The notes under the pieces were generated by a model, which had not been told where the DNA came from, did not search any database, and saw only the letters and a program-made list of their open reading frames with translations. DNA of 64,000 nt from an uncultured Erysipelotrichaceae bacterium (GTDB taxonomy: Bacteria; Bacillota_I; Bacilli_A; Erysipelotrichales; Erysipelotrichaceae): the NCBI GenBank assembly GCA_949289855.1, contig CASEPS010000001.1:1-64000 (forward strand), read 5' to 3'. Positions 6,341-28,695 of this stretch are shown here, in pieces (position 1 is the first letter of the stretch; the number at the start of each line of letters is the position of its first letter). Made by a program: the position numbers and the translations under genes.

Positions 6341-6606
6341 GTCCACCACCACTCTTTAGCCAATGGAATTAGACATAAACATGATCATCTGTGCTAATGA
6401 GAATTACCTCATCGCAATACCATTATAATACATATTTATGATAATGCAATATTAATTTAATAAATAGTTTTGCTTCTAAAAAGAGAATTCGTATTTTGAT
6501 AAGGAAATTTGTGGAATGGTTGTCATAATACTTTCCAAGTGAAATCTTTCTGCCTTTCTGGTGACAATTGAGATTGAAACAATTCTGTACTTTTTGCATC
6601 TGTTGT

Positions 6607-6634
6607 CTGTCATATGAAATGTGCTGTTTGTCGC
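6607..6634 (+). promoter_or_regulatory. ECF-type promoter or operator, site A
   Basis: CTGTC at 6607-6611 and TTGTCGC at 6628-6634 are separated by 16 bp containing ATGAAATGTGC. Nearly the same sequence stands at 10427 and 27494, and a looser copy at 25249. The site ends 60 bp before the ATG of the gene it precedes, a distance kept in two other copies. The rest of the 415-bp gap to the left holds only the operon terminator and AT-rich sequence. Confidence 0.6.
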
Positions 6635-10357: not shown

Positions 10358-10426
10358 CAGAAACTAATGATTCGATATTCTTAACATTCACGGTTTCATG
10401 TGATCATTTGCTTTTCTATCTGCAGT

Positions 10427-10454
10427 CTGTCATATGAAATATGCTGTTTGTCGC
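10427..10454 (+). promoter_or_regulatory. ECF-type promoter or operator, site B
   Basis: CTGTC (10427-10431), 16 bp, TTGTCGC (10448-10454). It differs from site A at one base across the 28 bp and stands 61 bp before the ATG. The leaders downstream also share CAGGAAAAGGAG. Confidence 0.62.
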
Positions 10455-14990: not shown

Positions 14991-15878
14991 ATGAAAGGTA
15001 TTGTTCTTGCCGGTGGTGCCGGCACAAGGCTCTATCCGCTTACCATGGTCACCAGCAAACAGCTGTTGCCGGTGTATGATAAGCCAATGATTTACTATCC
15101 GCTTTCTACTTTGATGCTGGCGGGTATCAGGGATATTCTCATCATTTCTACACCAGAGGATACACCACGTTTTGAGGCATTGCTTGGGGATGGCAGCCAG
15201 TTTGGCATCAGCCTTTCCTATAAAGTACAGCCTTCTCCTGATGGACTTGCCCAGGCATTCCTGCTTGGTGAGGAATTCATCGGGAATGATGCATGTGCTA
15301 TGGTACTTGGTGATAACATCTTCTATGGCAATGGTTTTGGCAGAACACTTCGTGCGGCTGTCAAAGAAGCAGAAGAGAACAACAATGCGACTGTGTTTGG
15401 TTACTATGTAACTGATCCGGAACGTTTTGGTGTTGTGGAGTTTGATGAAAATGGAAAAGCGATTTCCATTGAAGAAAAACCTGCTGAACCAAAGTCCAAC
15501 TATGCGGTTACTGGTCTTTACTTCTATCCATCTGGTGTCAGTGCAATGGCACATAAGGTAAAGCCTTCTGCCCGTGGTGAACTGGAAATTACAACGCTCA
15601 ATGAAATGTATCTTGAGGAAGAAAGGCTGAGTGTACAGCTGCTTGGCCGTGGTTTTGCATGGCTTGACACTGGAACAACAGATAGTCTGATTGAAGCGGC
15701 TGAGTTTGTGCAGACAATTGAAAATCTGCAGGGGATTACCGTTTCTGCACCAGAGGAAATTGCGTATCATAACAACTGGATTTCCAAAGAGAAGCTCATT
15801 GAGTCTGCTGAGAAGTATGGCAAGAGTCCATATGGCAAGCATTTGAAGGCAGTTGCGGAAGGAAAGGTGAGATATTGA
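14991..15878 (+). CDS. rmlA: Glucose-1-phosphate thymidylyltransferase
   Basis: First step of the pathway, joining glucose-1-phosphate and dTTP. The nucleotidyltransferase signature [13 protein letters not shown] is at the N-terminus, followed by [18 protein letters not shown]; later come the metal and sugar motifs VLGDNIFYG and EEKPAEPKS. Length 295 aa is typical. It starts 1 nt after the rmlD stop. In many genomes rmlA leads the operon; here the order is B-D-A-C. Confidence 0.95.
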
Positions 15879-15879
15879 T

Positions 15880-16488
15880 ATGGGTCAGATAAGCGTAGAA
15901 AAGAATGTCGGTGGTATTGAGGGGCTTTGTGTCATTACACCGGCTGTCCATGGCGATAACCGTGGTTATTTCATGGAGACATATAATGAAAATGACATGA
16001 AGGAAGCTGGTTTTGATATCAACTTTGTCCAGGACAACCAGTCTATGAGTACAAAAGGTGTATTGAGGGGTCTGCACTTTCAGAAACAGTATCCGCAATG
16101 CAAACTTGTCAGAGCTGTACGTGGTACGGTGTTTGATGTTGCGGTAGATCTGCGCAGTGAGTCCAAGACATATGGCAAGTGGTACGGTGTTGAACTTTCT
16201 GCCGAAAACAAGAAGCAGTTTCTGATTCCGGAAGGTTTCGCACATGGTTTCCTTGTGCTTTCTGATGAGGCAGAGTTCTGCTACAAGGTCAATGACTTCT
16301 ACCATCCAAATGATGAAGGTGGAATGGCATGGAATGACCCGGAAATTGGCATTGAATGGCCACATCTGACAGGTGAGTACAAAGGAAGTGCTTCTGCTGA
16401 TGGTTATCAGCTCGATGATGGGACACCGCTGAACCTGTCTGATAAGGACCAGAAGTGGGCAGGATTGAAGGAAACATTCAAGTTCTGA
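15880..16488 (+). CDS. rmlC: dTDP-4-dehydrorhamnose 3,5-epimerase
   Basis: Third pathway step. The cupin-fold enzyme shows RGLHFQKQYPQCKLVRAV with the catalytic histidine, followed by FDVAVDLR and EGFAHGFLVL. At 202 aa it is close to the normal 180-205 aa. It is the last gene of the operon, 1 nt after rmlA, with a T-tailed terminator 22 bp downstream. Confidence 0.95.
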   Translation: MGQISVEKNVGGIEGLCVITPAVHGDNRGYFMETYNENDMKEAGFDINFVQDNQSMSTKGVLRGLHFQKQYPQCKLVRAVRGTVFDVAVDLRSESKTYGKWYGVELSAENKKQFLIPEGFAHGFLVLSDEAEFCYKVNDFYHPNDEGGMAWNDPEIGIEWPHLTGEYKGSASADGYQLDDGTPLNLSDKDQKWAGLKETFKF

Positions 16489-16510
16489 GCATCATTTTTC
16501 AATAAAGTCT

Positions 16511-16539
16511 GAAAGGGGAGAGCAAAATGCTCTCCTTTT
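16511..16539 (+). terminator. Rho-independent terminator of rmlBDAC
   Basis: GGAGAGC (16517-16523) and GCTCTCC (16529-16535) with a 5-nt loop, followed by TTTTG. Confidence 0.85.
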
Positions 16540-16558
16540 GTGTATATGCGACACAATT

Positions 16559-16645
16559 ATTCGTTGTAAAAAGTGTAGCGTAATAACAATTTTTCGGTGT
16601 AAAAAATGTAATATTAAACATTTATTCGTTGGAAAAAGTGTTGCG
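16559..16645 (+). repeat. Three phased direct repeats upstream of the DUF4143 ATPase
   Basis: Three imperfect copies of ATTCGTTGTAAAAAGTGT lie with their TCG cores at about 16562, 16595 and 16627, a spacing of 33 and 32 bp (three helical turns). The third copy overlaps the -35 box. The phasing suggests a cooperative operator. Confidence 0.6.
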
Positions 16646-16656
16646 CAAGATATAAT
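16629..16656 (+). promoter_or_regulatory. Promoter of the DUF4143 ATPase gene
   Basis: TTGGAA (16629-16634), 16 bp, TATAAT (16651-16656). The -35 lies inside the third repeat, so a protein bound to the repeats would block RNA polymerase. Confidence 0.6.
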
Positions 16657-16674
16657 ATGTGTAGGGGTGTTCGT

Positions 16675-17985
16675 ATGTATCGGATTGCTATGGAACAACT
16701 TATCAGATGGAAAAATCAGAAGAATCGAAAGCCATTGATGATTGAGGGGGCAAGGCAGACAGGTAAAACGTGGTTAATGAAAGAGTTTGGCAGGTTGGAA
16801 TATAACGATACTGTATATATCAACTTTGATTCCAACAAAAGAATAGAAGACTTGTTTTCTTCTGATTTGAATACAGAGCGATTGATCGCAGGTTTGCAGC
16901 TGTATGCGGGGCATAAGATAGATCCAGAAAATACGTTGCTTATTTTTGATGAAATACAGGAAGTTCCCCGGGCATTGACATCTTTGAAGTATTTCTATGA
17001 AAATGCACCACAATATCAAATTGTTTGTGCCGGGTCTTTACTAGGTATTGCGTTGCATGAAGGAACTTCTTTTCCTGTTGGTAAAGTCAGCTTTCTGAAG
17101 TTGTATCCATTGTCTTATAAGGAGTTTCTGATGGCAGTTGGTCTTGAGCGTTATGCAAAATTGATCGATGAACAGGATTTTGAGATGATGACTGCGTTCA
17201 AAGAAACATATATAAGTGCCTTGAAGCAGTATTATTTTGTTGGTGGTATGCCGGAAGCAGTACAAAGTTTTGTGGATAATAAGGATTTTCAAGAGGTGCG
17301 GGAAATTCAGAAGAACATTCTTTCAGCTTACGAACAGGATTTTTCCAAACATGCACCAATTGAAATTGTGCCCAAAATCCGCATGGTATGGAATAGCATA
17401 CCTTCTCAGCTGGCTAAGGAGAATAAGAAGTTCATTTATGGAGTCGTACGTGAAGGGGCCAGGGCTAAAGACTTTGAAACAGCTATTATGTGGCTTGCGG
17501 ACTGTGGACTTGTTCATAAAGTGAGCCGCATCAACGGGGTGGGACTCCCCTTAAAAGCGTATGAGGATTTGAAGGCATTCAAATTGTTTATGGTGGATAT
17601 CGGGCTGCTTGGTTGTATGGCAGGTCTTCATGAAGAGACACTGCTCGATGGAAATGGTCTTTTTGTGGAATTTAAGGGGGCATTGTCAGAACAATATGTT
17701 TATCAACAGTTGAAAACATTGCACAATCTCAGTGTGTATTACTATACAAATGACAGAAGTTCTTGTGAAGTTGACTTTATCATCGATACTGGTGGAAAGG
17801 CTGTTCCTTTGGAAGTGAAGGCAGAAGTGAATTTGAAAGCAAAGAGTCTCAAAACGTATTGGGAAAAATATAATCCTACTATTTGTTTCCGTACTTCGTT
17901 AAGAGATTACAAAAAGGAAAGCTGGCTACTCAATTTACCACTGTATGCAATAGAAGCAATTACTGATGCGTTGAAAGATGGATGA
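16675..17985 (+). CDS. AAA_14/DUF4143 family ATP-binding protein
   Basis: The product has 436 aa. An N-terminal AAA ATPase with Walker A GARQTGKTWL (about 25), Walker B LLIFDEIQEV (about 88) and sensor CAGSLLG is followed by a C-terminal DUF4143 domain. There the segment CEVDFIID ... VPLEVKAE looks like a restriction-endonuclease fold with an E-x-K motif. The ATG at 16675 follows AGGGGTG; an earlier in-frame ATG lies directly at the end of the -10 box and is rejected. This family is common, mobile and of unsettled role. The phased repeats in its promoter suggest tight control. It forms a single-gene unit. Confidence 0.85.
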   Translation: MYRIAMEQLIRWKNQKNRKPLMIEGARQTGKTWLMKEFGRLEYNDTVYINFDSNKRIEDLFSSDLNTERLIAGLQLYAGHKIDPENTLLIFDEIQEVPRALTSLKYFYENAPQYQIVCAGSLLGIALHEGTSFPVGKVSFLKLYPLSYKEFLMAVGLERYAKLIDEQDFEMMTAFKETYISALKQYYFVGGMPEAVQSFVDNKDFQEVREIQKNILSAYEQDFSKHAPIEIVPKIRMVWNSIPSQLAKENKKFIYGVVREGARAKDFETAIMWLADCGLVHKVSRINGVGLPLKAYEDLKAFKLFMVDIGLLGCMAGLHEETLLDGNGLFVEFKGALSEQYVYQQLKTLHNLSVYYYTNDRSSCEVDFIIDTGGKAVPLEVKAEVNLKAKSLKTYWEKYNPTICFRTSLRDYKKESWLLNLPLYAIEAITDALKDG

Positions 17986-25227: not shown

Positions 25228-25248
25228 CGTTTAGGGCAGAAATGTACT

Positions 25249-25274
25249 ATGTCACCATACATGTGCATTCTGTC
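25249..25274 (+). promoter_or_regulatory. ECF-type promoter or operator, site D (sigma factor gene)
   Basis: TGTC followed by 16 bp containing CATGTGCATT and then CTGTC. It shares ATGTGCATTCTGTC with site C. It lies 130 bp before the sigma factor start, so the leader is longer than at the other sites. It suggests autoregulation. Confidence 0.42.
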
Positions 25275-25404
25275 CTTTTCTTATGTTTGTGTTACATGGA
25301 AAGATAATGTATACAGGAAATTTGCAATTGACAGAACTTTTCTCTATGGGTGCTCGTCTCTATGGTGGAGGATGTTTTGTGATGAATAGAGAAGGGAGAC
25401 TGAT

Positions 25405-27429
25405 ATGAAGAAGTCGATGGAAGAACTTGTGATTCTTGCAGGGAGTGGGAATAACAAAGCAAAAGAAGAATTGGTCCGATTGACGATTGATGATGCGTAT
25501 GTTGTGGCAAGGTCATTGTGTCATAGTGAAGCTGATGCACAGGATGTTTTGCAGGATTGTTATATGCAGGCTTTTGTGAAGCTGGATACATTGAATAATC
25601 CGTCTTCGTTTCGTGCATGGCTGAAGACGATGGTGCGCAACCGCTGTTTTGATTTGTATAAATCGTACCGTATGCAGAATGAACGCTCATTTTCTGATTA
25701 TGGACAGGAAAATGAAGAGGGAGACATTATTGAACTTGATCCGATAGATGTTTCTTCTGTCTATCAGCCAGAGGTTCAGATGGATATGAAAACAAAGCGG
25801 GAAATTGTATTTTCTATTATGAACACTCTTCCAGCTGAACAAAGGGAAGTAGTTTATCTCATGTATTATGAAAACCGGAAGATTTCAGAAATAGCACAAC
25901 AGTTACAGTGTACAGAAAACACAGTAAAGAGCAGGTTGCGGTATGCCAAGGCAAAGATTGAAACAGAAGTTTTAGCATTAGAGAAGAAGGAAGGCATAAA
26001 GCTTTACAATGTTGCGCCACTATTGTTGTTCAGCAGTTTGTGTCGTTCAGTACAGGAAGACGCAATAGTGTCTGTTGGCAAATATGCAACAAAGAAACTG
26101 GTTCGTTCAATGGTCGTAAAGAACACTCTTCAGCATGTTTTACAAGGTGTTGCATCTACTGCGGTACATAGTGCAGCAATGTCAACTGCTGCCAAAGTTG
26201 GTATTGCGGCAGCTGTTACATTGACAGCCGCAACTGGTACTGGTGCAGCGGTAGTGATCTACCAAAACCATGTAAAGAAACAAGAAACTGCTTTTAAACA
26301 GGAAGAGAATACTATGTCTTCTCAGATTCCGATCACACCAGAAGAAGAATCAACACTAATCTGGGCAGTTTCTCCGGATAGTGGTGTGTTTGATGGTGTA
26401 ACAAAGGCATATCCACTGAGTGGAAGACAAAGTTATTGGATTGAGAATGTGACTGGTCCCATTGGCTATCCTTCTCAATGGACAGATAGTAACTATAGTC
26501 CGGATGTGTTTGTAGCGGAGTGTGAAGATGGTAAGACATTGTTCAATTATGAAGGAGAAGAGTTGCTGAATAAACATTATGGATATATTCAGATTATTCC
26601 ATGGGGTGGGTTTCAAGGCGAATTACGGAATGACATCATCTTTGTCACAGATATAGAACCATGGGAAGGTGATGTATACACAGATGAATATGGCAATTTT
26701 CTGGATGAAAGTGATTTGGAAATACTTGCCTATCCATTGAGTAGTAACTATGTGGTCATGGAGGGAGTGGTTCTCGACCAGATGAATGGTGTAGGTGCCA
26801 GTACGAATCCACGTATGATTGTGAATGGAAAGATTTATGACAGTTTTAACTTTTGGGCATATGGTGTTCCGGACGATGTACAGCCAACTGAGCATTATGC
26901 ACAAAGTATGACACTAGGTCTTCCAAGAGATCAATTGACACAGGTATGTGCTGATGATTTTGAAACTATTCTTGGTATTGCCTGCATACGCAATGATGGT
27001 TCGGTTTGTCCAACCATGAAATATCTTCCTCATGGTGTGATGGTCAATGGAATAGTAGCAGCAAAGAATGTGATTTATACAGATACTACCTACCAGGATA
27101 CGCAGGCTTGTGATTTCTATGAAGGTATTGCGGCTGAAGGAGATAACCTTGCGGTGATGAATGCGTATACTGGCAAACAGCTTTCAGATTTTATCTATGA
27201 TGCAATTGGTTTTACAGTTGAGGGATATACACCAGTACAAAGGAATGGGAAATGGGGACTCATACGTTCGGATGATGGAACAGTAGTCATTGATTGTATT
27301 CTGGATAGCATTACTTCTGTTTACAAGGGTATGGTGTATGTGCAGTATGGTGATGTAAAAGGCATATTGGACCTTGCAAAGACACTGGAAGCAGGTGTTG
27401 CGATTAATGAAGAAACATTGATGGAATAA
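25405..27429 (+). CDS. Sigma-70 (ECF-like) factor fused to a transmembrane segment and an extracytoplasmic domain
   Basis: The product has 674 aa. Residues 1-190 form an ECF-type sigma factor: region 2 (DAQDVLQDCYMQAF near 45-58) and region 4 helix-turn-helix (SEIAQQLQCTENTVKSR near 161-177). After a basic linker an Ala/Thr-rich transmembrane helix spans about 262-286. The remaining 385 residues should lie outside; the last 60 hold a WG-type repeat (RNGKWGLIRSDDGTVVID). One polypeptide thus joins sensor, membrane anchor and sigma factor, so it probably needs proteolytic release or a conformational signal. No separate anti-sigma gene is adjacent. GAAGGGAGA precedes the ATG. The promoter family at 6607, 10427, 27494 and 25249 is its likely regulon. 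Confidence 0.8.
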   Translation: MKKSMEELVILAGSGNNKAKEELVRLTIDDAYVVARSLCHSEADAQDVLQDCYMQAFVKLDTLNNPSSFRAWLKTMVRNRCFDLYKSYRMQNERSFSDYGQENEEGDIIELDPIDVSSVYQPEVQMDMKTKREIVFSIMNTLPAEQREVVYLMYYENRKISEIAQQLQCTENTVKSRLRYAKAKIETEVLALEKKEGIKLYNVAPLLLFSSLCRSVQEDAIVSVGKYATKKLVRSMVVKNTLQHVLQGVASTAVHSAAMSTAAKVGIAAAVTLTAATGTGAAVVIYQNHVKKQETAFKQEENTMSSQIPITPEEESTLIWAVSPDSGVFDGVTKAYPLSGRQSYWIENVTGPIGYPSQWTDSNYSPDVFVAECEDGKTLFNYEGEELLNKHYGYIQIIPWGGFQGELRNDIIFVTDIEPWEGDVYTDEYGNFLDESDLEILAYPLSSNYVVMEGVVLDQMNGVGASTNPRMIVNGKIYDSFNFWAYGVPDDVQPTEHYAQSMTLGLPRDQLTQVCADDFETILGIACIRNDGSVCPTMKYLPHGVMVNGIVAAKNVIYTDTTYQDTQACDFYEGIAAEGDNLAVMNAYTGKQLSDFIYDAIGFTVEGYTPVQRNGKWGLIRSDDGTVVIDCILDSITSVYKGMVYVQYGDVKGILDLAKTLEAGVAINEETLME

Positions 27430-27493
27430 GTGATTGTATGAGACAGGTCTCTCTGTTACAGGGAGATCTGTTTTTATGTTGGGAATATGTCAT

Positions 27494-27520
27494 CTGTCCA
27501 TGAAATGTGCATTCTGTCGC
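27494..27520 (+). promoter_or_regulatory. ECF-type promoter or operator, site C
   Basis: CTGTC (27494-27498), 15 bp including ATGAAATGTGC, CTGTCGC (27514-27520). It ends 61 bp before the ATG at 27581, the same distance as sites A and B. Confidence 0.58.
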
Positions 27521-28256: not shown

Positions 28257-28443
28257 TCAGATCATCTTCAATTGTTTCAAGGCATATTCTATGCCATCTT
28301 CTGGGACTGATTTTGTGACAAAGTCTGCCATGTTTTTGATATCGTCTATAGTATTACCCATGGCTACTCTGTAACCTGTACTTTCCATCATTTCTTTGTC
28401 ATTGTAGTTGTCTCCAAAGGAAACGACTTCTTCTTTGTTATAT
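28257..28443 (-). pseudogene. C-terminal remnant of a Cof-type HAD-IIB phosphatase
   Basis: Read leftward, the frame gives NKEEVVSFGDNYNDKEMM, then TGYRVAMGNTIDDIKNMAD and ends ALKQLKMI. This is HAD motif IV (GDxxND) and the C-terminus of Cof-like sugar phosphatases. Only about 60 residues of a roughly 270-residue protein remain. The frame is cut at about 28443, where sequence from an unrelated gene on the opposite strand begins. A terminator lies directly behind its stop. It is a remnant, not an active gene. Confidence 0.75.
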
Positions 28444-28695
28444 AGAGTGACAAAGAAACAGAAGTATGCGGATGACTACTATGCATTTATGCAATACCTT
28501 GATGAAAAGGTATTGGATCATGTGAATGATTCATGGTTCCATCAGTTGGATCAAAACAATAATGTGATTGGTGCAGTATTGCCAGGAAAGCCAGATATCC
28601 ATCATGCATTACAGTCAACATTAATTCCATACTATGCATGTGATATATCCAGTGCCCCAGCTGTAAAAGATGGTAAAACAAACTGGATGATATGA
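28436..28695 (+). pseudogene. C-terminal remnant of an AGE-family epimerase/isomerase
   Basis: The frame reads LYRVTKKQKYADDYY, then SWFHQLDQNNNVIG and PGKPDIHHALQSTLIP. These are the closing motifs of N-acylglucosamine 2-epimerase-family proteins. About 85 residues remain of a roughly 400-residue protein. The left end joins the HAD remnant at about 28436-28445, with a small overlap of assignable sequence. An ATG-started frame at 28408 exists only because of this fusion and has no ribosome site. A terminator follows the stop. Confidence 0.72.

Follow-up and report, generated by a model that had tools for sequence, protein, structure and literature searches.

Fused, self-tethered ECF sigma factors are represented by few cases, and IutY is the only one with an experimentally characterised proteolytic mechanism (PMC8999054). 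IutY (ECF243) of Pseudomonas putida unites sigma and anti-sigma factor in one polypeptide, from which cleavage by Prc and RseP frees the sigma factor (PMC5411451). The protein described here is encoded in a window of 64,000 nucleotides (the whole stretch of DNA that was analysed) from an uncultured Erysipelotrichaceae bacterium. Like IutY, it is predicted to combine an N-terminal cytoplasmic ECF sigma factor, one transmembrane (TM) helix and a C-terminal outer domain. In IutY, the outer part serves iron signalling as an anti-sigma domain that cooperates with a receptor of the outer membrane. In contrast, the window protein comes from a Firmicute host without an outer membrane, its family carries WG repeats or other ectodomains, and the linker is long and variable.

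The actinobacterial groups ECF48, ECF52 (SCO4117) and ECF53 also consist of a sigma factor, a TM helix and a long outer region, and proteolytic activation was proposed for them (PMC8999054). They possess a zinc-finger anti-sigma domain, whereas none was among the Pfam matches listed between the sigma part and the TM helix in the window protein or in 70 of its relatives. ECF57 has WD40-like C-terminal repeats for which a role in protein interaction, but none at the membrane, was discussed (PMC8999054). It resembles the window protein in its beta-repeat C-terminal extension, but the repeats of the latter are located past the TM helix. In the SigI/RsgI systems of Clostridium thermocellum, RseP cleaves RsgI in the TM helix (PMC12203970). 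The likeness lies in the many parallel Firmicute sigma systems that sense outside substrates; however, SigI and RsgI are two proteins, a sigma and an anti-sigma factor, and the window system is one. SigI is also not an ECF sigma factor. The Firmicute groups ECF262 and ECF288 comprise clostridial ECF sigma factors with regulatory extensions of unstudied function (PMC8999054, Table 2); they resemble the window family in this respect and might include it.

The general idea of a fused sigma factor is known, having been proven for IutY and proposed for ECF48, ECF52 and ECF53 (PMC8999054). The present family differs from these cases in its Firmicute host, in that no anti-sigma domain is recognised, in the swappable ectodomains shared with lipoproteins, in the large number of paralogues and in the pairing with genes for exported proteins.

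Domain layout and flanking elements of the window gene

The first-pass annotation described an intact ECF sigma factor (regions 2 and 4) that continues into a TM helix and about 385 outer residues of WG type, and every part of this description was borne out. Both sigma regions scored far above the Pfam cut-offs (Table 1), a single hydrophobic helix followed, and the approximately 388 residues beyond it included two WG repeats. The sigma part additionally matched TIGR02937 at 94.9 bits in a profile search. No further Pfam match was obtained between regions 2 and 4, and regions 1.1 and 3 are absent. ECF (group 4) sigma factors consist of regions 2 and 4 without regions 1.1 and 3, which is the composition of the window protein. 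The TM helix is rich in Ala, Gly and Thr and has a modest Kyte-Doolittle hydropathy, calculated over 19 residues.

A cognate anti-sigma gene adjoining the ECF gene is usual, albeit not universal. As first annotated, no separate anti-sigma gene is adjacent: none of the scanned ORFs adjoining the window gene matched an anti-sigma family in Pfam, and neither a FecR-like nor another anti-sigma Pfam domain was matched within the protein itself. A short ORF in the window (28408-28695) matched GlcNAc 2-epimerase over the final 61 positions only and is probably a gene remnant.

The strong stem-loop and T run behind the stop codon suggest that the window gene probably ends its own transcript, and no gene for an exported partner is present in the operon; a stricter consensus terminator scan did not report the stem-loop. 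Upstream of the gene lies a tandem direct repeat, TGTC...ATGTGCATTYTGTCG, with a period of about 20-21. Further sites are located in the window at 27490-27519, 6600-6633 and 10418-10453 as well as in L213, L214, L215 and L011 (2761). The repeat precedes several envelope genes, namely that of the sigma fusion as well as those for lipoproteins of WG type, small membrane proteins, a zinc-ribbon protein and a CRP-like regulator; with up to two mismatches, 28 sites were counted in the genome versus 3 for the reversed pattern.

Table 1 Positions of the fusion gene, its encoded domains and its flanking elements in the window
Feature	Positions	Strand	Basis
Sigma-TM-ectodomain fusion protein, 674 aa	25405..27429	+	single open frame; ATG 25405, stop 27429
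Sigma-70 region 2, residues 27-87	25483..25665	+	Pfam PF04542 (Sigma70_r2), 44.1 bits, cut-off 24
Sigma-70 region 4, residues 137-185	25813..25959	+	Pfam PF08281 (Sigma70_r4_2), 49.4 bits, cut-off 25.7
Conserved post-region-4 segment (KEGIKLYNVAPLLLFSSLC...), residues 195-219	25987..26061	+	invariant columns in relatives; AF2 helix
Variable cytoplasmic linker, residues 220-262	26062..26190	+	alignment; AF2 confidence mostly low
Transmembrane helix, residues 265-287	26197..26265	+	Kyte-Doolittle maximum of 1.81 (267-285)
Extracytoplasmic domain (VIWAxxP...GYPxxW...WG), residues 317-674	26353..27426	+	lipoprotein-borne homologues; AF2 model
Two WG_beta_rep repeats	27169..27354	+	Pfam PF14903, from residue 589, 37.9 bits, cut-off 25.6
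Candidate ECF promoter GAACTT-N15-CGTC (GAACTTTTCTCTATGGGTGCTCGTC)	25334..25358	+	46 bp before ATG
Likely terminator, stem-loop and T run just past stop codon	27440..27474	+	-20.3 kcal/mol, z -5.9
Tandem direct-repeat site (TGTC...ATGTGCATTCTGTC), operator-like	25248..25275	+	common to other envelope-gene upstream regions

Fusion as the usual state of the family

Such fusions are rare among textbook ECF sigma factors, and two neighbouring genes might have been joined by chance or by assembly. To this explanation we give practically no credence, and it is ruled out by a full-length paralogue on another contig of the same genome (G000:C37; 45% identity over residues 1-672) together with the fused family. 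The search for homologues with the same fusion also recovered about 60 fused paralogues in one genome (G626) and 27 in another (G640), both from other Erysipelotrichaceae genera, and similar fusions in MAGs of Oscillospiraceae, Clostridiales and Lachnospiraceae and on one human faecal contig. One of the Clostridiales fusions likewise carries a WG repeat. In G626, 61 of the 67 sigma matches lie in frames of 426-490 residues, corresponding to about 60 sigma-TM genes (L132, L138-L177); in G640, 27 of 29 sigma matches are fused (L184-L210). A third sigma-TM protein of the window's own genome, encoded on contig C102, has a Pro/Thr-rich outer stalk in place of the WG domain.

Among the complete relatives, 73 of 76 sigma proteins continue into a tail, and the remaining three are ordinary short ECF sigma factors. 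A frameshift or stop codon separating the sigma part from the outer part, as expected if they were normally separate proteins, was seen in none of the complete relatives examined. The fusion is hence the usual state of the family. In 68 of the 73 fused proteins, including the window protein, the TM hydropathy reaches at least 1.6. On genome contigs, relatives were recovered with an alignment as query, while the window protein alone gave no match. Under a strict threshold, close relatives of the sigma part were present in 9 of 392 genomes of a phylum sample and in 23 of 196 genomes of the family.

The window protein and its C37 copy are 54% identical in the sigma part versus 45% in the outer part, which indicates that the sigma part is under constraint and not decaying. 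Nevertheless, the sigma part could be a spent or repurposed cytoplasmic module, serving as an anchor or in a dominant-negative manner, with the exported domain being what matters. Three proteins of genome G013 (L045 439-2133; L052 1099-3522 and 3560-5272) fit such a role: they retain a degraded region 2 followed by TM helix and ectodomain, the latter of WG type in both L052 proteins, and have lost region 4, so that the sigma part is not always needed. They are either the remnants of former sigma fusions or decoys without activity. A zinc-ribbon-TM protein adjoining sigma fusions (L045 15556-17001) also has a related ectodomain. Against a spent module stand the high scores of regions 2 and 4 in the window protein, their presence in nearly all of the 70 relatives and the ECF promoters that accompany the G626 fusions (see below), and we regard it as improbable. 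A functional sigma factor is the preferred reading.

Outer domain and sigma model

The window's own genome encodes three proteins in which the WG outer domain occurs without a sigma factor, all three with lipoprotein-type signal peptides. Within the genus (MAGs named Solobacterium), the outer domain starting at VIWAxEP belongs to a lipoprotein in most cases and more rarely lies behind a sigma-TM unit. Its occurrence behind lipoprotein signal peptides in both genome and genus indicates that the domain is exported and is the best evidence for this, as well as for a replacement of the lipoprotein signal by the sigma-TM unit. This independent existence, together with the Ala/Gly/Thr-rich TM helix and the small residues close to its outer end, would also suit the loss of the outer domain shortly after export, through signal peptidase or constant shedding; the outer part would then be a secreted product, and the sigma factor would be regulated by its synthesis only. 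The fusion in 73 of 76 complete relatives suggests that the linkage matters, and shedding of this kind seems very improbable to us.

Ectodomains vary among the relatives and comprise WG, DUF3160, TSP3-VWA-lipase and undefined types; matches to the WG-repeat family were obtained for 27 of 27 outer domains (E 0.01). Structure prediction, proposed as a check in the first-pass annotation, yielded a well-modelled, mostly beta outer domain (AF2; pLDDT 82.9, pTM 0.86). Foldseek returned mostly beta-propellers with query TM-scores of at most 0.29 and rmsd above 12 A; as these matches are weak and none in the PDB is convincing globally, no fold is claimed. Zinc-ribbon-TM-ectodomain proteins adjoin sigma fusions at L045 14615-15556 as well as at 15556-17001. 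The ectodomain type of the latter appears, as judged by eye, to be common to a sigma fusion and a lipoprotein in L044, so that a single type of outer domain may stand behind three different N-terminal units.

The segment directly after region 4 (KEGIKLYNVAPLLLF) is conserved, with three columns invariant in 13 relatives (L198, P203 and F207; the alignment numbering starts at residue 3). In the AF2 model of the sigma-linker-TM part (pLDDT 77, pTM 0.63), a helix at 205-227 directly follows region 4, and we infer that this segment is a candidate self-inhibitory or docking helix. In whole-chain comparisons, the highest target TM-scores were those of SigW with its anti-sigma factor RsiW (0.67-0.69), a likeness to be read with the compact shape that AF2 may give a lone sigma factor by default, and of CnrH-CnrY (0.61); polymerase-bound ECF sigma factors scored 0.30-0.39. 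The model would suit a closed state in which the sigma factor inhibits itself, without proving such a state. The first-pass annotation had suggested that the protein keeps its own sigma domain at the membrane and releases it by cleavage. The former half appears to be the best reading of the architecture, the sigma model being nearer to anti-sigma-bound SigW; release by cleavage would follow the precedent of IutY (PMC5411451).

The chief rival to release by cleavage is a sigma factor that acts while tethered and uncleaved, in the manner of membrane-bound regulators such as CadC and ToxR, with the outer domain altering its availability by conformation or clustering. The stretch between region 4 and the TM helix measures 39-227 residues in the relatives; it is often rich in Ala, Pro and Thr, is modelled with low confidence, and appears flexible and long enough for such a reach. 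The Pfam families listed for the sigma-to-TM part of the 70 relatives include no anti-sigma family. However, IutY, the one fused ECF sigma factor with an experimentally characterised mechanism, is cleaved (PMC5411451, PMC8999054), and a tether would be expected to hinder promoter escape. We therefore consider activity in the tethered state unlikely and retain cleavage as the preferred route of release.

Promoters, partner genes and the proposed switch

Promoters of ECF sigma factors are of the AAC / CGT(C) type and autoregulated. In G626, the promoter TGAACG-N16-CGACTAAT or a close form was found in 24 of 47 upstream regions, compared with a mean of 0.08 and a maximum of 2 in shuffles. About half of the G626 sigma-TM genes are without the strict promoter; the enrichment nonetheless argues for working, probably autoregulated sigma factors. 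The candidate promoter of the window gene has the same spacing of 17 between GAAC and CG. No other GAAC-N16-18-CGTC site occurs in the 64-kb window, against an expectation of 1.26 for any position on both strands; its place before the sigma gene is notable, although a single site proves nothing. A longer promoter pattern matches only six times in the genome, the window site included; as the five others lie within ORF-length frames, no regulon is claimed. Many G626 sigma-TM genes have one and the same promoter motif, which raises the question of how specificity is kept. Two Oscillospiraceae sigma fusions have a conserved upstream element, TAGACCTC-N-CACCCTGCTA...CGTCTAT, about 64 bp (L061) and 93 bp (L065) before the sigma start, which by its sequence is likely another ECF promoter.

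In G626, a gene with an exported-type N-terminus lies within 130 bp downstream of 39 of the 46 sigma-TM genes that have enough 3' sequence, and many of these partners are large leucine-rich-repeat surface proteins. In G640, an exported-like gene follows within 450 bp in 23 of 27 cases; the background of exported-like proteins is 11 of 52 ORFs in the window. The G640 fusions have nearly all short ectodomains and are mostly followed by a paralogous secreted protein of about 700 aa. In the gaps before the exported-protein gene, a -35-like TGAA(A)C box that follows an A/T run is enriched, with 11 of 23 instances versus 1.6 in shuffles; a dyad search for a shared -10 motif in these gaps gave A/T-rich words only.

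In view of the computed architecture, conservation, exported outer domain, ECF-type promoters and partner pairing in relatives, we consider it probable that the protein is a one-polypeptide, autoregulating trans-envelope sigma switch, which in relatives controls adjacent surface-protein genes. The sigma domain would be held on the cytoplasmic side of the membrane through the one TM helix, while the outer domain would sense or bind something at the cell surface. In the resting state the tether, probably along with the post-region-4 segment, would keep the sigma factor off core polymerase. A signal at the outer domain would free it, most likely by a first cut outside followed by a site-2 protease near or within the TM helix. 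The genome encodes one such protease (M50); these genes also occur in 14 of 14 control genomes and, being near-universal, offer no specific support. Once freed, the sigma factor would use a GAAC-N17-CG(T/A)C promoter to transcribe its own gene; in relatives it would also transcribe the adjacent gene for an exported protein.

Our search of the literature outside the ECF reclassification found no published account of this sigma-TM family. It is conceivable, and we propose it tentatively, that in Erysipelotrichaceae and related gut Firmicutes tethered sigma factors are a main ECF type, reaching about 60 in one genome and each switching a paired exported surface protein, and that they form a large modular selection system not yet described. 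If each sigma factor controls its neighbouring surface protein, the arrangement would give gut bacteria a simple and portable means of linking a single surface product with a signal from outside, and the family offers many natural sensor-sigma-promoter sets for studying how ectodomains control sigma factors.
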